The position numbers and the translations under genes are program-made. Positions 36,593 through 46,012 of a stretch of 46,012 bases of DNA are shown in pieces; within the stretch, counting starts at the first letter, position 1, and every line of letters starts with the position of its first letter. The notes beneath the pieces are model-generated. The model did no database searches. It had not been told where the DNA came from and worked only from the letters and a program-made list of their open reading frames with translations. This DNA comes from Azoarcus sp. (GTDB lineage: Bacteria; Pseudomonadota; Gammaproteobacteria; Burkholderiales; Rhodocyclaceae). The stretch lies in the NCBI GenBank assembly GCA_031289095.1, contig JAITQD010000034.1, positions 1 through 46,012 of the forward strand, written 5' to 3'.

Positions 36593-36838
36593 ATGTTGCA
36601 AGCCCTGCGCCGATCCGGCGGCTCACTGGTCATGACGATTCCCAAATCGTTCATCGAACAGAACGGTTTGAGCGACGGCTCAAAGGTTGCCCTTCGGTTG
36701 TCGGGTAGCACCCTGACGGTGGAAGCGACCCAGCGCCCACGCTACAATCTCACCGATCTGATGGCCGAAATGCCCGAGGGCTACCCCCGGCTGGAGGATT
36801 GGGAAAACATGCCTGCCGTCGGCCTGGAGCGCGACTGA
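36593..36838 (+). CDS. mazE: MazE-like antitoxin (AbrB/SpoVT domain)
   Basis: An 81-aa antitoxin. The N-terminal swapped-hairpin DNA-binding domain is clear: SGGSLVMTIPKSFIEQNGLSDGSKVALRLSG. The C-terminal part (LMAEMPEGYPRLEDWENM) is the acidic toxin-binding tail. ATG 36593 has AGAGG upstream. Its stop shares bases with the toxin start (TGATG), so antitoxin and toxin are co-translated. It probably represses its own promoter at 36537-36571. Confidence 0.9.
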   Translation: MLQALRRSGGSLVMTIPKSFIEQNGLSDGSKVALRLSGSTLTVEATQRPRYNLTDLMAEMPEGYPRLEDWENMPAVGLERD

Positions 36839-37185
36839 TGGCCTATTTCCCGAATCGCGGCGACATCGTTCATCTCCAGTTCGACCCCGCCTCCGGTCAC
36901 GAAATGAAAGGCCCGCATTTCGGCTTCGTGGTCAGCGGCAAGGAATTCAACCGGCAGGGCTTGGCAATGATCTGCCCGGTCTCCCAAGGCGCGACTGCAA
37001 CGGCGCGCACATACGGCACCGTTGTCACACTGATGGGCAGCGGAACGGACACACAAGGCGCGATCCACTGCCATCAATTGAAATCTCTGGACTGGCGTGC
37101 ACGTAACGCCCGCTTCAAGGAAACCGTACCGCAAGGCATTGTCGATGAAGTGTTGGCGCGGTTGGAAGCGATTTTGTTCACCTGA
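36838..37185 (+). CDS. mazF: MazF-like endoribonuclease toxin
   Basis: A 115-aa toxin of the MazF/PemK family, which cuts mRNA at short sequences. It shows the opening PNRGDIVHLQFDPASGHEMKG (GD and the conserved region around the catalytic Arg/Lys), HFGFVVSGKEFN, ICPVSQG and the C-terminal helix QGIVDEVLARLEAIL. Length and order fit a complete toxin. It directly follows the antitoxin gene with the TGATG overlap. Confidence 0.9.
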   Translation: MAYFPNRGDIVHLQFDPASGHEMKGPHFGFVVSGKEFNRQGLAMICPVSQGATATARTYGTVVTLMGSGTDTQGAIHCHQLKSLDWRARNARFKETVPQGIVDEVLARLEAILFT

Positions 37186-38127: not shown

Positions 38128-39471
38128 ATGATCTCCAACTCCGGTTTTTCCTACACTCAGCCCCAACTGCAAGAGATTGCCGCCGATATTCTCAAGTACG
38201 CCCGCAAAAAGGGCGCTTCGGCCTGCGAAACGGACATTTCTGAGAGCTTCGGCCAGTCGGTTTCGGTACGCAAAGGCGCGGTGGAGACCATCGAATACAA
38301 CCGCGACAAAGGCATCGGCGTCACGGTTTACCTCGGCCAGCAGCGCGGACAGGCGAGTACGTCCGATTTTTCCCGCGCCGCGTTGAAGGCTGCGGTCGAC
38401 GCGGCTTTGTCGATCGCCCGTTTCACCGCCCCCGATCCCTGCGCCGGGCTTGCCGACAAGACGCTGATGGCGCGCGATTGCCCCGATCTCGACTTGTTCC
38501 ACCCTTGGGATATGCCGGTGGCCGACGCCATCGCCCTGGCGCGCCGCTGCGAAGAAGCCGCGTTCGCGGTCGATCCGCTGATCCGCAATTCCGAAGGCGC
38601 GGGCGTCTCGACGCAACAATCGCATTTTGTTTCCGCCAACAGCCTCGGCTTCGTGGGCGGTTTCGCCAACAGTCGGCATTCCCTGTCGTGCGCAGTCATC
38701 GCCGGGGAAGGCGACACCATGCAGCGGGAGTTCTGGTACGACGACCGCCGCGACGCCGCCGACCTGACTGCCGCTGAGGAGGTCGGGCGCATCGCTGGCG
38801 AACGGGCGCTGGCTCGCCACGGCGCAAGAAGAATCCGTACCCGCGAGGCCCCGGTCGTTTTCGAGGCGCCGCTTGCAGTGAGTCTCATCGGCAACTTCGT
38901 GCAAGCAACGAGCGGCGGCGCGCTTTACCGCCATGCCAGCTTTCTGCTCGATGCGCTCGGCCAGCCGGTGTTCTCGCCAGTGGTCAGCATCGGCGAACGC
39001 CCGCACCTTCCAAAAGCGTTCGGCGCAAGCTGGTTCGACGGCGACGGCGTCGCCACCCAGGATCGAGAGGTGGTGATCGACGGCGTGCTGCAAGGCTATT
39101 TCCTCTCCGTCTATACCGCGCGCAAGCTCGGACTCCAGACCACAGGCAACGCGGGCGGCTCCCACAACCTGCGGGTCAAGGCCGGCGACGACGATCTCGC
39201 CGCCATCCTGAAAAAAATGGACAGGGGGCTGCTTGTCACTGAACTCCTCGGGCACGGCGTCAATTACGTCACCGGCGACTATTCGCGCGGCGCGGCGGGT
39301 TTCTGGGTAGAAAAAGGTCGGATCAAGCACCCGGTACAGGAAGTCACGATTGCCGGCAACCTGCGCGACATGTTCCGCAACATCGTTGCGGTGGGCAACG
39401 ACGCCTTGCCGCGCGGGGCCAAGCATTGCGGCTCGGTGCTGATTGAACGCATGAAAATCGCCGGACGGTGA
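38128..39471 (+). CDS. pmbA: Metalloprotease TldE/PmbA
   Basis: A 447-aa protein of the TldD/TldE family. With TldD, TldE forms a heterodimeric zinc protease that processes small peptides such as microcin B17 and helps degrade CcdA. TldE itself lacks the HExxxH motif, as is seen here. Features are ADILKYARKKGASACETDIS, the segment VRKGAVETIEYNRDKGIGVTVY and the C-terminal LLVTELLGHGVNYVTGDYSRGAAGFWVE. ATG 38128 is preferred; an upstream ATG 38107 would overlap the region before darP. It is divergent from darP. Confidence 0.95.
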   Translation: MISNSGFSYTQPQLQEIAADILKYARKKGASACETDISESFGQSVSVRKGAVETIEYNRDKGIGVTVYLGQQRGQASTSDFSRAALKAAVDAALSIARFTAPDPCAGLADKTLMARDCPDLDLFHPWDMPVADAIALARRCEEAAFAVDPLIRNSEGAGVSTQQSHFVSANSLGFVGGFANSRHSLSCAVIAGEGDTMQREFWYDDRRDAADLTAAEEVGRIAGERALARHGARRIRTREAPVVFEAPLAVSLIGNFVQATSGGALYRHASFLLDALGQPVFSPVVSIGERPHLPKAFGASWFDGDGVATQDREVVIDGVLQGYFLSVYTARKLGLQTTGNAGGSHNLRVKAGDDDLAAILKKMDRGLLVTELLGHGVNYVTGDYSRGAAGFWVEKGRIKHPVQEVTIAGNLRDMFRNIVAVGNDALPRGAKHCGSVLIERMKIAGR

Positions 39472-39521
39472 CGGCGACGAAATTCCCGCAAGCTTGCTGT
39501 TCCTCCTGCATTGAGGTCATC

Positions 39522-39539
39522 TTGCAATAATCGTTGCAA
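39522..39539. promoter_or_regulatory. Paired TTGCAA palindromes before the ubiquitin-like operon
   Basis: TTGCAA at 39522-39527 and 39534-39539, six bases apart; each is its own reverse complement and the whole 18-bp block is a near-palindrome. It lies 23 bases before the first gene of the operon, a good place for an operator. Confidence 0.4.
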
Positions 39540-39562
39540 ATCACCTCGGCAGGAGAACCGAA

Positions 39563-40009
39563 ATGATTACGCGACGGCAATTGCTGGAATGGGAGGTGCG
39601 GGAAATCGGGCAATGGCTGGCCTGCTTTTCCGGCCGCGATTTGCACCCGCAGGCGGGCCTTGGCAAGCACATTGGTACTTTGTGGATTCGGGACTATCCG
39701 CTGCCCGATAAATACGCGCCTGAAGACCGCTTCGATCTCTTCGTCGATATCACCGGTTTTCCCGAAACTTCGCCGCGCGGCATCTACCTGAAAGAGACCG
39801 ACGCCAACCATGCCCTGCTGGCAAAGTTGCGGCAGAAATTCAACGTATTCGAAAACGGCGCGGTCTTCCATGAGGCAAAAAGCGCCCCTGGCTATGCATG
39901 GATTTGCTTTGGCTACCTGCACGGCTGGCAATACAACATTCGCCACCCGAACCGGAGCGATAACCTCTGGAAGATGTTCATGAATTTCTGGCGTGTACTG
40001 GGAGACTGA
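39563..40009 (+). CDS. Prokaryotic E2-like (ubiquitin-conjugating fold) protein
   Basis: A 148-aa protein judged to be E2-like from the segment FDLFVDITGFPETSPRGIYLKE (57-78), which matches the strand-turn-strand with conserved Pro of the UBC fold (compare GFP.t.P.giyL). The candidate catalytic residue is Cys115 in YAWICFGYLHGW; Cys21 is the only other cysteine. This is a motif reading, not a database match. An AGGAG ribosome binding site precedes ATG 39563. The next gene, a JAB-E1 fusion, starts three bases after its stop, and E2-E1-JAB clustering is the hallmark of prokaryotic ubiquitin-like conjugation systems. Confidence 0.7.
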   Translation: MITRRQLLEWEVREIGQWLACFSGRDLHPQAGLGKHIGTLWIRDYPLPDKYAPEDRFDLFVDITGFPETSPRGIYLKETDANHALLAKLRQKFNVFENGAVFHEAKSAPGYAWICFGYLHGWQYNIRHPNRSDNLWKMFMNFWRVLGD

Positions 40010-40012
40010 CCC

Positions 40013-41506
40013 ATGGATCGCATCAGGATCACACACGCGGTAGCGGAAAAGTTGCGCGCCCTTCATCTCGCCCCCGGCAAACGGACGGAAGCCCTGAGCT
40101 ACGCATTTGCCAACGCGCTGGAAACGGAACGTGGCGATCTGGTCGTGGTCATGGCAGACCCGGAAAACGTTTTCCTTCTCGCGCCAAACTGCTATCGCGC
40201 CCAGGACGCCGCCCACTTGACGGTACACCCTGACGTACGAGCCGGCGTAATCTGCCGCGGCATCGACGAAAAACGCAAGGCGCTCACCGTCGTCGATATT
40301 CACGACCACTGGTTCGCCCGCGATGCCGCCTTCTCCGGCACCGATGACCGCGATGACCTGCGCGCGGCCCGCCTCATGCGCAAGGACTTCGTCCCCCACC
40401 TCGAACCGGGCCGGGAAATCCACCTGGTTTCCATCCTGATCGCACGCGAAGGCTGGCGCGCACGCCGGGTGGTATGGGACGACACCGGGCGGCCCGTTTT
40501 CCGGGACGTACTGGTCGACATCCCAGGCGACCGCCACGAACGCCACGGTCTGGCCCCGGACACGAAACTCGCCTGGCAACACCGCCAAAGCGCCATGATT
40601 TCGCCGGCGCATCGCGCTGCCTTGCGCTCCCTGCGGGTTGCGCTGGCGGGCGGCGGCGGTACCGGTTCGATCATGCTGGAGGCGCTGCTGCGGCTGGGCA
40701 TCCAGCACATCGACGTCATCGACGGCGACGCCATCGAAGCCAGCAACCTCAACCGCCTGCAAGGCGCCTCGTTCTCTGACGTCTGTCGCAACAAGGCGGA
40801 ATTCCTGGCGGCCCGGGCCAGGATGATGTTCGACAATGCCGACGTGCGCGCCATCCCCATGATGGCGCATGCCGGCATGGCGGTGCAGGCGCTCCAGGGC
40901 GCCGACCTGATCATCGGCTGCGTCGACAACCATGAGACCCGCTGGTTTCTCAACCAGGTTGCCGTGCAGTACGCGATACCCTGGTTCGATTGCGCCACCG
41001 CGGTCACCACCGGCGCGGGCGGCTCCCCCGTCTTTCTGAGCACGATGAATGCCGTCATTCCCGGACGGACGGCCTGCGGCCACTGCTCGACCGTCACCTT
41101 TTACGAGCGCAAGCGGCCCGCCGCCTTTCTGAGTATGGAAACCCTGGCAGAACAGCGCGCCGCCGGCTACATCCTGGACGAACCCGAAGCCGCTTCCCCC
41201 TCCATCTATTTCCTCAACATGCAGACGGTATCCACCCTCATTCGTGAACTCATGAACTGGTTTTGCGGCTGGACACCGCCGGCCATCAACGTCTTCCAGC
41301 GTAGTGACGACACCCGGGCCGAACGGCTGGATCTGAACGCCGAAGCCTCTCTCGTCAGGCCGCGCGATACCTGTCCGGTTTGCGGCACCCTGCTCGGGCG
41401 CTGTCAGGAAGACGAACTGCCGCACGCAGGACGCAGCCTGCAAGCTTGCCACAAAGGCGAAACCGCCCGGACGGCATCAAAATTCAACCACGAAGAACCT
41501 TCCTGA
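40013..41506 (+). CDS. JAB (JAMM) protease - E1-like (ThiF) adenylyltransferase fusion
   Basis: A 497-aa two-domain protein. The N-terminal part (about 1-175) resembles a JAB deubiquitinase-type metalloprotease: Glu26 in RTEALSY, His97-x-His99, Ser108 and Asp111 in IHDHWFARDAAFSGTD fit the JAMM pattern. The E1 domain follows: ATP loop LAGGGGTGS (211-219), the D-x-D-x-IE-x-SNLNR motif at 237-248, and a candidate catalytic Cys327 in PWFDCATA. Two CxxC pairs (355/358 and 454/457) should hold a structural zinc. It should activate a modifier by adenylylation and pass it to the E2-like protein. No obvious ubiquitin-like protein ending in Gly-Gly is in the window. Confidence 0.85.
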   Translation: MDRIRITHAVAEKLRALHLAPGKRTEALSYAFANALETERGDLVVVMADPENVFLLAPNCYRAQDAAHLTVHPDVRAGVICRGIDEKRKALTVVDIHDHWFARDAAFSGTDDRDDLRAARLMRKDFVPHLEPGREIHLVSILIAREGWRARRVVWDDTGRPVFRDVLVDIPGDRHERHGLAPDTKLAWQHRQSAMISPAHRAALRSLRVALAGGGGTGSIMLEALLRLGIQHIDVIDGDAIEASNLNRLQGASFSDVCRNKAEFLAARARMMFDNADVRAIPMMAHAGMAVQALQGADLIIGCVDNHETRWFLNQVAVQYAIPWFDCATAVTTGAGGSPVFLSTMNAVIPGRTACGHCSTVTFYERKRPAAFLSMETLAEQRAAGYILDEPEAASPSIYFLNMQTVSTLIRELMNWFCGWTPPAINVFQRSDDTRAERLDLNAEASLVRPRDTCPVCGTLLGRCQEDELPHAGRSLQACHKGETARTASKFNHEEPS

Positions 41507-41526
41507 CCCGCAAAGGAGAATGTGCC

Positions 41527-41778
41527 ATGGCCACCTTTAACGCCAATAAGTTCACCAAGATTATTCTTGACGGCGAAGAGCGCCGTATTGGCAGCGATAC
41601 GCGCTATTGCGACATCGTGCCCGAAAATACGTCATCGGTTGAAATTCTCGAGCCGGAAAATGGCAAGACGCGCCTCATTCCGCGCGAGGACTTCCAAAGC
41701 AGCGTCACGCCAGGGGCATACCATACGAATCAGACAGCCGTCGAGAAAGGAGCCGTTCCCCGCCATCAGGACGACTGA
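41527..41778 (+). CDS. Unrecognised 83-aa protein of the ubiquitin-like operon
   Basis: A small soluble protein with a strong ribosome binding site (AAAGGAG) at ATG 41527, starting 20 bases after the E1 gene. It could be mostly beta-strand: KFTKIILDGEERRIG, CDIVPENTSSVEILE and GKTRLIPREDF alternate charged and hydrophobic residues. The position makes it a candidate modifier or substrate, but the C terminus (PRHQDD) is not Gly-Gly and would need trimming. One cysteine (Cys28). I cannot assign a family. Confidence 0.75.
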   Translation: MATFNANKFTKIILDGEERRIGSDTRYCDIVPENTSSVEILEPENGKTRLIPREDFQSSVTPGAYHTNQTAVEKGAVPRHQDD

Positions 41779-41798
41779 CGTTCCAGTCAGAGGCCAGG

Positions 41799-42956
41799 AT
41801 GATGAACGCAGCGGACTTCTTTGCCGATCTTGATTTTTTTGCCCGTTTGGGCCGCATCGGTTCCGCGCCGCTGTCCTTGTGGGCCGAAACGTTGAGGCCG
41901 GAAATCGGCACACAGGCGCACATTATCTGCCACTGCGGCGAAAACGTCCGTGCCACCCTGGACGGACGGTCGTTCGGTGATCGCGGCGGTCTGGTGGCGG
42001 ACGGTCACGTGCTGGTTTTCGGCGTAGCGCAAGATCGTCCGTATATCGTGCACCTCGAAGACGACGATGGCCAGACGTGTGAAATTGTGCTCCAACCGGC
42101 GGTGGACATTCCCGAAATGACCCGGCTGACGCTTCCCGCACGCCCGGACTACGCAGAGGGGGTAATTCATTGTGCGCTGGCAACGGAAAAAACTCATGAC
42201 ATCACCGCAAAGTACCGCGCCCCAGGCCGGGACTGGCGCAGCCTGCCCATGCGGGGAGAGGCTTTTGACCTGCCAGTGGAAACCCGGGCGCCGCACCGCA
42301 TCGACCTGTGCATCACCGTTGCCTCGCGTCACGCCCGTTTTACCGAACGCGCCAGGCGCACTTACGAAGCGCAGGTCGACATCCAGCATCCATTACCCAT
42401 CTGCCGCCTGGACGCCGTAGCGCAACCCATCCACCGTTTCGACGCACGGGAACTAGAACTACGGTTTCTGTACCATGACGGCGTAGTGGTCTGTCACGCC
42501 GGTGCGCGGCACGCTTTCGGCCCCGGGCATGCCGTGCACCGCCTGGTGCTCGACACCGCCACGGTTGGCGAACAACCGGTGATGGTTGAACTGCGTGGGC
42601 GGGATGGCGCGCTGCGGCATGAAGTCTTTTTCATACCGGTGCTACCTCGCCCTCATACCGTGAGCGTCACCCGGCTGGAAGACGGCTGTCACGTTGCCAT
42701 TGGCGGCGCCGTCGCCGCGACGCTGACGGTTCCCGCCCGTCATTATCAACATTCTTTTCCCAGTGAAGGGGGCCGCATCCGACACGCCCTTCGCTTGCCG
42801 GCCACCGCCCATATCGACGCCATCGACGACCAAGGCGGCGCGCATCGCACCACGCTCACCTTGTCGCCGCCACGCCCGGTGGCGCACCCTTTGCCACCCA
42901 TGAGAAAGATCGCTTTCCGCCTCGCTCAAACAGCGGGAAACATGAAAAACGTATAA
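41799..42956 (+). CDS. Unrecognised 385-aa protein of the ubiquitin-like operon
   Basis: The last gene of the operon, starting 20 bases after the 83-aa gene; start ATG 41799 or 41802. The protein looks beta-rich and soluble, with repeated strand-like blocks such as DGHVLVFGVAQDRPYIVHLEDDD, RIDLCITVASRHARF and VSVTRLEDGCHVAIGGAVAATLTV, and no signal peptide or membrane helix. A histidine-rich part (HDGVVVCHAGARHAFGPGHAVHR) is notable. It has no motif I can name. It is probably the variable or target-specific part of the system, but this is inference from position only. Confidence 0.75.
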   Translation: MMNAADFFADLDFFARLGRIGSAPLSLWAETLRPEIGTQAHIICHCGENVRATLDGRSFGDRGGLVADGHVLVFGVAQDRPYIVHLEDDDGQTCEIVLQPAVDIPEMTRLTLPARPDYAEGVIHCALATEKTHDITAKYRAPGRDWRSLPMRGEAFDLPVETRAPHRIDLCITVASRHARFTERARRTYEAQVDIQHPLPICRLDAVAQPIHRFDARELELRFLYHDGVVVCHAGARHAFGPGHAVHRLVLDTATVGEQPVMVELRGRDGALRHEVFFIPVLPRPHTVSVTRLEDGCHVAIGGAVAATLTVPARHYQHSFPSEGGRIRHALRLPATAHIDAIDDQGGAHRTTLTLSPPRPVAHPLPPMRKIAFRLAQTAGNMKNV

Positions 42957-43098
42957 TCTGAAAGATTGGCAACACAATGATTATTGATGAAAAAAACACA
43001 TCTTCCCGATGCGTTGTCAAGAAAACTTGCCCACTACCGCATTTCGTGCAAGAATGTCGTGGTAAGGTGCTGAATCGTTTTGATAATTTTGCTACACT
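42957..43098 (+). promoter_or_regulatory. AT-richer stretch before the CRISPR array, candidate leader
   Basis: About 140 bases, clearly lower in GC than the flanking genes, with no gene. It includes GATAAT and GCTACACT just before the first repeat, which could give a -10 box on the plus strand. The array may instead be read from the other side (see the repeat entry), so leader status is uncertain. Confidence 0.4.
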
Positions 43099-43333
43099 GT
43101 TTCGGGAGCCCTGAATGTGGAAGGGATTAAGACTTTTGGCAAAGACTTTTTCGTCTTTACCTATAGGTTTCGGGAGCCCTGAATGTGGAAGGGATTAAGA
43201 CATTGCTTCGGCTAGATGTCCGGTTTGTTTTGTTTCGGGAGCCCTGAATGTGAAGGGATTAAGACAGTAAGTTTGCTTCGTCAATGGCTTCTATACCCGT
43301 TTCGGGAGCCCTGAATGTGGAAGGGATTAAGAC
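43099..43333. CRISPR. CRISPR array, four 35-nt repeats and three spacers
   Basis: Repeats at 43099-43133, 43167-43201, 43232-43265 and 43299-43333. Each starts GTTTCGGGAG and ends GGGATTAAGAC; the third lacks one G (34 nt). Spacers are 33, 30 and 33 nt. Read on the minus strand the repeat ends in GAAAC, the usual 3' end of many type I and III repeats, which would favour minus-strand transcription from the cas2 side. Fifty-four bases separate the array from the cas2 stop, and no fifth repeat is seen there. The array lies between the ubiquitin-like operon and the cas genes. No effector genes are visible in the window. Confidence 0.95.
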
Positions 43334-43387
43334 GATTCTCGTTTCTGCAGCTTCTTTTTCGCCCACGACCAAGCCATGACACAGGTA

Positions 43388-43666
43388 TCAAACCACCCAT
43401 ACCCTTTGCATCGCAGGAAAACCCGCTTTATCCCATGCCAAGGCGAACGCCATATCCTGCCCGCACAGCGGATAAAAACGCACCTTGTCTTCCACCGGAT
43501 CGGCCAGCGCCGCCAATTCCAGCCGCAGACGCTGCCAGCAGTCGCGGTTCAGATCACATTCGAACACGCTTTTCTGAATGCGCCGACCAAAACCTTCCAA
43601 CAGCCTGCTGATGCGCAGACGGCGGCGGTTATCGGGAATGTCGTAGGCGACGACGAAAAAGCTCAT
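43388..43666 (-). CDS. cas2: CRISPR-associated protein Cas2
   Basis: A 92-aa Cas2. The start is MSFFVVAYDIPDNRRRLRIS with the conserved first-strand Asp, followed by the RAMP-like ferredoxin fold and RIQKSVFECDL, and it ends RVWVV as usual. Cas2 bridges two Cas1 dimers in the integrase that inserts spacers. It overlaps the Cas1-Cas2 fusion gene by four bases (ATGA). It is the second Cas2 domain in this cluster. Confidence 0.93.
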   Translation of the reverse strand: MSFFVVAYDIPDNRRRLRISRLLEGFGRRIQKSVFECDLNRDCWQRLRLELAALADPVEDKVRFYPLCGQDMAFALAWDKAGFPAMQRVWVV

Positions 43667-44703
43667 AACACCCATACCCGCTGGTCGACGTTGCGCTCGC
43701 CTATGCCAAGCCAGCCGATTTCTGGCTCGCACGCTGCGCAGAATGGGTAGGCGCGCAAAGAATCGGTTTCGGCATTCAGCATTCCGGCAAGGCGAGCAAA
43801 GTAAAACTTGGCCTCGTCCACGGTCAACCGGCACTCGAACACCGAGCGCTGTACCCGTTCGCCGAAGGCCGACAGCACCTGCTCCACCTTGCGCCGACAC
43901 CGGTCGTCGCCAATGTCGTAGGTCACCATCCATAAGCGGCGCATGGCAACCCCGTGCTCAGACCCTAGCCAAGTAAGGCCCGTATGGGGCACACCTTCCG
44001 GCACCAAGGCGCGGGCATAGCGCGCCGCCTGAGCACGCAGGAGGCGATACAGGCTGATTTTTTCCTCCCCTTCACGGCTTGCCACCGGCGCAGCCATACG
44101 GGCTTCGAGGCGGGCAATCAGGAGTTGCTTTGCTGCGGGCTGCATCCGACACATGGCGTTGACGCCATCAGGCAGTTCGAAATCCTCGTCTGGGTCGAGC
44201 GCGTGTTTGCGCGCAAGCGTCAACACGACGGCATCGACCACCAGGGGACGGAACTCTTCCATCAGATCACACACTAGGGACGGACGCCCAGCCACCTGGG
44301 CATGCAAATGACCCAGGCCGGGATGCAGGCGTAACTTGAGCAGGGTGGCATGGAGCGTGTGGAACAGCACCGAGTAACCATAGGAAAGCATGGCGTTGAT
44401 CGGGTCACGCGGCGGCATGCGGTTACGACCATCAAACCGCCAAGGCGGTGGCAGCAGTTCGGCAAAAGCAGCAAAATAGGCGCGCGCCGCACGTCCTTCA
44501 TGACCGCGCAGGACACCGAGTTCGTCGATGCGGTCGAGCCGCGCCAGACTGCGTTCGAGAACCGACATGGCGCGCTCGGCCCGCCCGGATGGCGTACGAC
44601 GCACGAAGCGACGCAGCAGGATACGGCAGTTGTGGAGTTTGCCGCGTATGCAGGCACGCGCAACGGCCACAGTGAAAGCGGGGTTGCCATCACGTTGTTG
44701 CCG
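43663..44703 (-). pseudogene. cas1: Cas1 catalytic domain fused in frame to a Cas2 domain (5' end lost)
   Basis: The Cas1 C-terminal helical domain runs from about AFTVAVARACIRGKLHNCR with the catalytic triad intact: Glu in RGHEGRAARAYF, His in GLGHLH and Glu in LVCDLMEEFRP. Most of the N-terminal beta domain is missing: the frame upstream closes at TGA 44704-44706. The frame then runs without a stop into a complete Cas2 of 93 residues from 43944 (MRRLWMVTYDIGDDR to RVWVL). The fusion is therefore direct and in frame, although the Cas2 might also be started separately at ATG 43944. In homologues this Cas1 continues from a reverse transcriptase domain, here the broken segment at 44702-45227. 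Likely inactive as Cas1 unless the frameshift is an assembly error. Confidence 0.82.
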
Positions 44704-45227
44704 TCATCGCAGGCACACGCTTCATCCTGAAGTACACCCACACCGTCCGGCGGAGAATGGGAGATACGGGCGAAACTCTCCTCTCCGGGCAGCGAGCCGG
44801 AATGCAATGCTCGTGACATTGGCTGGCTATCCGCAATTTCTGCGGCTGCTGGCAATATCCACGGCGTCGCCCTTTCCTCTGCTGCTTCGACCCGCCCACC
44901 CTTGAAACACGCGCCGATGAAGCAAAAGCCGGAGCGAAAATGAGTAATGCGGGTTTTGTCCTCATTGATTTCCAGGCGCAACGTGGCGAGTAGGCGATGC
45001 ACTTCCGCAAGCGCCGCTTCGGCTTCGAGCCGGGAACGGCATAGCACGAGAAAATCGTCGGCGTAGCGCACCAAGGTGTAACTGCCGCGTTTGAGCGCAT
45101 GGTCGAGTGGATGCAGATAAAAATTGGCGAGCAAAGGCGACACCGGCGCCCCTTGCGGTACGCCACACCGCCGCGGGAATAAAGCGCCGTTTTTCATTAC
45201 CGGCGCGGCAAGCCATTGCGCCAGCAG
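44702..45227 (-). pseudogene. Reverse transcriptase fragment of an RT-Cas1 gene
   Basis: The frame shows RT motifs GVPQGAPVSPLLANFYL and LVRYADDFLVLC (YADD, 45065-45054) and then LEINEDKTRITHF. It is cut at both ends. The first catalytic Asp motif and fingers (normally about 100 residues earlier) are absent. After FIGACFKGG a linker of about 60 residues runs on, with a trace like the start of Cas1 (VGVLQDEACACDDG), before the frame leaves the Cas1 frame at about 44703. The frame stays open after that only as a shadow of Cas1. Such RT-Cas1 fusions in other bacteria allow spacer capture from RNA. This one has lost essential parts. Confidence 0.8.
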
Positions 45228-45285
45228 CGGGCAAGAATGCCCTCGTCCAGACACTGCTGCAAGAGAAGGACAGACGGCGCAGGGG

Positions 45286-46012
45286 TCATTGTAATGCTTC
45301 CGTTTGCGGCGCTGGCTCAACCCATATCGGTACTTGCGAGCAAACACGGGCGATGGCCAGTTCAGCCCGCGTAACGACTTCCGCCGCTTCAAGCCGTTCC
45401 TGCTCACGTAAGGCGATGTCGTACGGGGTAAAGCGCCTGTTCACGCAGCTGATGAAGAAGGCGCCCTCCAGCGCGAACAGCATGCTGAAAGCCATCGCGG
45501 CGATGGCCAGGAGTCCCGGTTCACGGCCCGATTCGACGATGCCCCACAGCAATGAGGCATCGGAGATGATGCTTGCTTCGCGCGGCGGCTGGTAGCGATG
45601 GTCGTTCGCCATCTCCGTGTCAATATTTTTTTGCGCGGCGGCAAACTGTTCGGCACGGCTTGAACGTTCGTTCTCCAGATCAGTGATTTTGTCATTTACG
45701 GTCGCCAGGTTAGCGCGAAGGGTTTCCCCAGTGGTCGCCAGCTTGCCCAGCGTGTCGGCATTTTTGTCGGCCAGTGCCCTGGCGGCGCGATACTTCGGCC
45801 CCTCCCCGATCAGGCGGCCATTGAAGCCTCCTGCCTGCGCGTACATTTCCTCGGTGTTGCGCACTTCGGCAGCAGCTATTCCACTTTCGCGGGTCGCCAG
45901 TGCATCCAGCTTATTACTGATACGTTCGTGTTCCTCATGTTGCACCTTTATCAGAGCGTCCAGCGCCTTGACCCTCTCGGTATTTACCTCTTTCAGGCGC
46001 GTTGCATACTCT
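45286..46012 (-). CDS. DUF4407-like coiled-coil membrane protein, partial at window end
   Basis: At least 241 residues, open to the right edge of the window, so the start is not seen. The visible part is a long coiled coil (EYATRLKEVNTERVKALDAL, KNADTLGKLATTGETLRANLATVN, then DKITDLENERSSRAEQFAAA) followed by the membrane helix LLAIAAMAFSMLFALEGAFFI and RFTPYDIALREQERL. The PYD segment after the helix is typical of DUF4407. Its function is not established. Its stop lies 59 bases from the RT fragment on the same strand. Confidence 0.72.
   Translation of the reverse strand, partial: EYATRLKEVNTERVKALDALIKVQHEEHERISNKLDALATRESGIAAAEVRNTEEMYAQAGGFNGRLIGEGPKYRAARALADKNADTLGKLATTGETLRANLATVNDKITDLENERSSRAEQFAAAQKNIDTEMANDHRYQPPREASIISDASLLWGIVESGREPGLLAIAAMAFSMLFALEGAFFISCVNRRFTPYDIALREQERLEAAEVVTRAELAIARVCSQVPIWVEPAPQTEALQ

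Follow-up and report, generated by a model that had tools for sequence, protein, structure and literature searches.

Positions 39,563 to 42,956 of a 46,012-nucleotide stretch from an Azoarcus species (bases 1-46012 of contig JAITQD010000034.1, here called the window; the host draft genome comprises 2.52 Mb in 126 contigs) hold four genes which, judged from sequence comparison and structure prediction, probably form a ubiquitin-like conjugation module. The first gene (39563..40009, P0001) encodes a 148-amino-acid protein that is probably of the E2/UEV type, BubB-like and strongly diverged, and the second (40013..41506, P0002) a BubCD-like fusion of a JAMM peptidase with an E1 enzyme, 497 amino acids in length. 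The third (41527..41778, P0003) and the fourth gene (41799..42956, P0004) encode orphan proteins of 83 and 385 amino acids, the former a candidate modifier or substrate and the latter a candidate partner, substrate or effector. The coordinates bear out the layout proposed in an earlier sequence-only reading: the four open reading frames (ORFs) are intact and all on the + strand, follow each other with gaps of 3, 20 and 20 bases, and are presumably co-transcribed. Shine-Dalgarno-like AGGAG motifs stand before the first (39551..39555, + strand) and the third gene (41514..41518, + strand), and both these good ribosome sites and the tight spacing speak for such a module.

In Pfam the 497-amino-acid protein is matched by ThiF with an E value of 1.7e-38. 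Its best solved relatives are the chains of Citrobacter BubCD (E 4.6e-18, residues 79-414), and the aligned region includes the E1 domain as well as the JAMM centre. Relatives were collected as the best 80 of 136 loci from a profile-guided scan of GTDB genomes, to which six viral contigs, one class genome (L004), and five neighbourhoods opened of 104 plasmid records were added. The locus counts given below cover those 85 of the 92 loci in which a JAB-E1 ORF exceeds 1.1 kb and were made with our own seed-built profiles on stop-to-stop ORFs; as the loci are best matches of pattern scans, the counts describe the sampled loci and not the whole class. The protein is 23-34% identical to the relatives compared, and 37 of the 52 columns with at least 90% conservation across the 85 relatives are retained in it, the 15 differing columns including W100 (usually proline) and T344 (usually arginine). 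Among these conserved columns and in the BubCD alignment stands the JAMM metal motif H97-x-H99 ... S108-x2-D111 (40301..40345, + strand), with E26 upstream of it; D111 pairs with D104 of BubCD, which is the residue altered in the PDB construct D104A. The E1 (ThiF) part (40586..41383, + strand) carries G213-x-GGTGS219, D237, D239, N245, R248, K261, and D305, found with Pfam and in columns conserved to at least 90%, and within the same coordinates the zinc-type cysteines C355, C358, C454, and C457, of which C454 comes from a seven-row alignment only and the others from the columns of the 85 relatives. At E values up to 1 the protein escaped the Prok-JAB model of Pfam, which did recognise a relative (L008). 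On paper the enzyme thus appears catalytically complete, and the JAMM-E1 fusion of the sequence-only reading is upheld, with the JAMM domain in N-terminal position, by the alignment over both halves and by the intact JAMM and ThiF motifs. In a tree the protein grouped with the E1 of a viral contig (L090) with a support of 90/42; this was taken as long branches meeting and was not used.

For the 148-amino-acid protein several lines of comparison point to an E2/UEV-fold partner of the JAMM-E1 fusion. Its gene lies directly 5' of the JAB-E1 gene, the place which the E2 occupies in 82 of the 85 related loci, so that an E2/RWD-fold candidate adjoins the JAB-E1 here as there. A structure prediction, which the sequence-only reading had proposed, yielded a UBC/UEV fold from an alignment containing E2s, and this predicted fold matched that of BubB. 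In a test with an E2 profile cut into two halves, 3,556 ORFs were given, 265 to 320 had both halves in order, and the 148-amino-acid protein came first at all three gap limits; with raw end-to-start gaps it had not been counted, and the gaps were then projected to the profile ends. Two E2 motif expressions occurred in order in 69 of 86 E2s and in none of 3,555 background ORFs; taken by itself, the C-terminal expression was present in 85 of the 86 E2s and in 8 of the 3,555 ORFs, spurious frames being included in the background of these tests. As the rule was altered after a first result and the motifs were written with knowledge of this very protein, both tests are supporting and not independent. 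Full-profile HMMER gave an insignificant E value of 0.0036 for one target, and hhalign against Prok-E2_E (PF14462) a probability of 5%, with 1 of 50 shuffles scoring above, which is likewise insignificant. Position, motifs, and predicted fold agree with the E2-like protein proposed earlier, which is therefore retained as probable.

The neighbourhoods of the relatives show what would be expected next to such a pair of genes. A Pfam scan of the neighbours in three loci (L004, L008, and L009) gave Multi_ubiq (PF14452), Prok-E2_E (PF14462), and DUF6527 (PF20137). By profile, a Prok-E2_E-type E2 is present in all 85 loci, in 82 of them immediately upstream of the JAB-E1 (within -400 to +150 bases), either free or fused to the modifier. 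The modifier Multi_ubiq lies no more than 3.5 kb from the E1 in 84 loci, 81 loci have DUF6527, and 10 encode a protein of about 500 amino acids. Bub (bacterial ubiquitination-like) systems employ an oxyester step. Citrobacter BubB belongs to the same E2 family as the E2s of the relatives, and on a Citrobacter plasmid the multiubiquitin, JAB-E1, and DUF6527 genes stand in series. Iyer et al. (2006, PMC1779556) describe operons of class 6e in a similar way, with an N-terminal JAB fused to the E1, an inactive E2/RWD-like protein, a polyUbl, and a metal-binding protein, and report the polyUbl in all 6e neighbourhoods. This operon type is today called Bub.

Ten of the 85 loci (L004, L026, L027, L030, L037, L040, L042, L057, L075, and L086) form a second 6e subgroup, seemingly a distinct Bub variant, with genes for a Ubl, an E2, a JAB-E1, the protein of about 500 amino acids, and a DUF6527-like protein. 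The large protein is conserved and looks kinase-like by eye only, the DUF6527-like partner is longer, with about 175-200 amino acids where read, and the modifiers end in FG, FGA, FGRS, FGGA or FGGRA.

Behind the JAMM-E1 gene of the window two orphan genes follow. In agreement with the two unrecognised proteins of the sequence-only reading, neither the 83- nor the 385-amino-acid protein was matched in Pfam, NCBIfam or PADLOC (all at E up to 1) or in PHROGs (E up to 0.5), and the same holds for the 148-amino-acid protein. Neither the four proteins nor the six-frame ORFs of the window, counted from 30 amino acids upwards, were matched by DUF6527 (PF20137). By profile the 385-amino-acid protein shows no relation to DUF6527, to the modifier or to the large protein found in the second 6e subgroup, and its AlphaFold2 model from the single sequence, with a predicted local distance difference test score (pLDDT) of 35, is uninterpretable. 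A loose pattern had by eye suggested a Multi_ubiq-like 83-amino-acid protein; this candidate was rejected, since hhalign scored it at 10.7 and shuffled sequences reached 16.9, with at least 10 of 60 above. Among the ORFs of the 92 related loci phmmer found no relatives of the 148-, 83-, and 385-amino-acid proteins. The 83-amino-acid protein was found in its own genome only among 199 genomes of the family, and not in plasmids or viral contigs. The same is true of the 385-amino-acid protein in these 199 and in 369 class genomes, in plasmids, and in viral contigs, apart from a genome match of 45 residues with two internal stops (E 3.3e-4) that was taken as chance. For the 148-amino-acid protein the searches covered viral contigs and plasmids and gave no match.

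From the JAMM-E1 fusion with its intact motifs and the E2/UEV-like neighbour it follows that the candidate ubiquitin-like conjugation system proposed earlier is plausible and probably correct. Our favoured reading, held with moderate confidence, is that the operon derives from the 6e/Bub class but has diverged strongly from it, forming a reversible conjugation module whose modifier has been replaced or altered beyond recognition. Most likely it works like a Bub operon. The E1 half of the fusion would adenylate the C-terminus of a protein, the JAMM half would process the precursor and reverse the conjugates, and the 148-amino-acid protein would assist transfer to a target. The activated protein would most likely be the 83-amino-acid protein, as a replacement or an extremely altered modifier, and the 385-amino-acid protein may be a dedicated partner, target or effector. 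The comparisons show the gene order, the JAMM-E1 identity with its intact motifs, and the lack of a detectable Multi_ubiq or DUF6527, and they support the E2/UEV fold well; we infer conjugation itself, the protein that is conjugated, its target, and whatever part the operon plays in defence or stress. As a small gene directly behind the E1, the 83-amino-acid gene is the first candidate for the modifier, and that its product is the modifier, whatever its fold, has a sizeable minority chance. Conjugation through the C-terminus of the 385-amino-acid protein would be the second candidate, by analogy with cGAS and Cap2 as described in PMC10097602. A bolder version, which we hold only tentatively, is a cascade of Bub lineage in which the ubiquitin-fold modifier was swapped for an unrelated 83-amino-acid protein, or which conjugates a trimmed tail of the 385-amino-acid protein, and which arose independently of the cyclic oligonucleotide-based antiphage signalling system (CBASS).

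Several results weigh against the derivation from 6e/Bub. No modifier of the operon was identified: Multi_ubiq (PF14452) was sought without success in the four proteins and among the six-frame window ORFs, and hhalign against the Multi_ubiq profile gave no beta-grasp homology for the 83-amino-acid protein. The 148-amino-acid protein had no match to Prok-E2_E (PF14462), the family of the relatives' E2s, in the Pfam scan or the search of its own genome, and its E2-fold model was favoured because E2 relatives stood in the alignment. The branch of the 497-amino-acid protein is by far the longest in the tree, with 4.83 against a median of 0.23, and none of the sets searched yielded another genome with this gene combination, so that the operon is known from one genome.

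Compared with Bub (BubCD and BubB structures 9ea4 and 9eae), the operon shares a JAMM-E1 fusion whose two halves can both be aligned and whose JAMM residues are identical and, just upstream, the gene of an E2/UEV-type partner with matching predicted fold; it differs in having no detectable multiubiquitin or DUF6527 gene and two orphan genes downstream. With 6e as given in PMC1779556 it shares the N-terminal JAB on the E1 and the E2/RWD-like protein, but the polyUbl and the metal-binding protein are undetectable. It resembles the second 6e subgroup in its JAB-E1, E2, and extra large downstream protein, the latter, however, unrelated by profile to that of the subgroup. The claim that the operon fits none of the well-known layouts is not supported as it stands, as an E2-like protein with a JAB-E1 is the core of both 6e, according to that paper, and Bub. 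The oddity is narrower than had been claimed: Multi_ubiq and DUF6527, nearly constant in the relatives, are undetectable here, and orphans stand in their place. Since the defining genes were looked for and not found, the operon should not be filed as Bub. That a Gly-Gly modifier is missing was right in so far as none was detected, but it is the weaker point in view of the modifier endings in the second 6e subgroup.

The alternative that survives best, though we consider it unlikely, is a conjugation resembling that of type II CBASS, in which no ubiquitin-like protein takes part, the 385-amino-acid protein (or an 83-amino-acid protein of unrelated fold) being itself activated. Type II CBASS with Cap2 and Cap3 likewise lacks a classical modifier despite its E1, E2, and JAMM functions, and cGAS, which has neither a ubiquitin fold nor Gly-Gly, is still conjugated by Cap2 according to PMC10097602. 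The conjugated cGAS described there ends, however, in a conserved G or A. The tails of the 83-amino-acid (...RHQDD) and the 385-amino-acid protein (...GNMKNV) are unlike this, and JAMM trimming would be needed before activation; moreover, the E1 belongs to the Bub class, in which all but one of the sampled loci carry a modifier. Unlike in CBASS, E2 and E1 are separate proteins here rather than a Cap2 fusion, the JAMM domain sits on the E1, and no CD-NTase is among the four proteins, in line with the sequence-only reading. In PADLOC the matches listed, 25 of 29, all come from E1-E2 models that fall on the E1 portion of the 497-amino-acid protein, with no CD-NTase among those listed.

Decay of the operon after loss of the modifier and the DUF6527 gene, leaving it non-working, is improbable. 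The long branch, the missing partners, and the rarity of the JAB-E1 in its genus would suit such a loss, as would the reverse transcriptase (RT) and Cas1 pieces of the adjoining CRISPR locus, which lie in different frames. The four ORFs are nevertheless intact and closely spaced, catalytic columns have been kept while others drift, and the codon scores (0.15, 0.28, 0.13, and 0.11 for the 148-, 497-, 83-, and 385-amino-acid ORFs) fall within or near those of other scored genes. The latter are 0.23-0.25 for pmbA, DAHP synthase, and DarP, which are partly circular as these three were among the six reference ORFs, 0.26 for mazE, 0.12-0.13 for mazF, cas2, and cas1, and 0.02 for the RT piece. Antisense ORFs of 702, 200, and 265 amino acids scored 0.08, 0.16, and 0.07, so that codon scores alone are insufficient to exclude an antisense reading, which for the 497-amino-acid ORF is excluded by its homology.

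A modifier gene at another place in the genome would explain why none was seen in the operon or the window, and the own-genome search with PF14452 was empty, yet the controls were silent too, which leaves absence unproven; as the relatives almost always keep the modifier close to the E1, we regard this as very unlikely. A sulfur-transfer adenylyltransferase of the ThiF/MoeB type for a cofactor or tRNA, for which the ThiF and MoeB models scoring on the E1 half could be quoted, is the least credible explanation, given the JAMM fusion and the E2-like partner, NCBIfam matches (25 listed of 33) all far under their curated cut-offs (the best with 76 of 275 bits), a Pfam scan of 20 window ORFs that gave neither a thiamine nor a molybdenum-cofactor family, and 85 relatives that sit in Bub-type loci.

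Two further systems are set apart by their gene content. Bil (BilABCD) combines E1, E2, and JAMM with the ubiquitin-like BilA, its JAB and E1 being separate genes; here the same set is present with JAB and E1 in one protein and no modifier detected. PRTRC shares the ThiF-type E1, but its model TIGR03736 gave 48.4 against a cut-off of 144.75 bits on the 497-amino-acid protein.

Should the enzymes prove to work without a modifier of ubiquitin fold, they would show that E1-E2-JAMM machinery is able to turn to new protein tails on more than one occasion, a point of interest for the evolution of ubiquitin-type tagging. In this compact four-gene system the activated protein should be findable by a simple adduct experiment.

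The operon lies in a variable site. In seven sibling stretches the similarity breaks off at the pmbA stop codon or at most a few bases away from it (window 39464-39476); six of them continue with other genes and the seventh ends about 150 bases further on at a contig end. Searched for in 21 genus genomes (E 1e-20), the JAB-E1 was present in one, and together with the break at pmbA this places the operon and the CRISPR block in a variable site and suggests the distribution of a gained island. Searches with the 497-amino-acid protein of 369 class (E 1e-25), 399 order and 398 phylum (both E 1e-26), and 21 genus genomes (E 1e-20), sets which overlap and in which weaker matches were uncounted, gave, besides the genome itself, a single match of 28% identity (G502). 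Searched alone, it had no closer relative in assembled genome contigs and, as a single protein, none in viral contigs; phage records gave two weak ThiF matches. The operon and its flanks show no marked difference in GC content. Between pmbA and the operon there is no regulator gene, and the palindromic hexamer TTGCAA occurs twice 5' of the first gene with 6 nt between the copies (39522..39539), possibly as an operator for a regulator. A consensus scan of 39300-43300 gave no sigma-70-like promoter.

The CRISPR neighbour noted earlier was found near the right end of the window, with an array of four repeats at 43099-43336 (one copy minus a base, spacing 68, 65, and 67), followed on the - strand (43388-45407) by Cas2, an ORF with Cas1 and a second Cas2-like domain, and upstream of it in another frame an RT piece. 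The Cas1_IIIb model is matched in one part by the RT piece and in another by the Cas1 piece, so that an RT-Cas1 fusion appears to be split by a frameshift or sequencing error. A role in defence is a guess, hinted at by the kinship with Bub, the CRISPR neighbour, and the variable site. PMC12687455 groups Bub with systems that appear anti-phage, and according to PMC13373217 protection against phage had not been demonstrated for Bub operons. The latter source also links many Bub operons with regulators that respond to DNA damage.

Elsewhere in the window, a MazE-like antitoxin and a PemK/MazF-like toxin form a pair between DAHP synthase and darP (36593-37185). On an IMG/VR contig (L090) BubCD-like and DUF6527-like genes were seen by eye near Mu-like phage genes, and Bub-type operons may travel on prophage-like elements. 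In two Bub-type operons of Rhizobium (L116 and L117) the next gene is annotated as the proteolytic subunit of an ATP-dependent Clp protease, and a protease-like ORF was seen by eye downstream in two other loci (L045 and L088); with Clp protease genes beside Bub-type operons, a link between tagging and proteolysis would merit checking.

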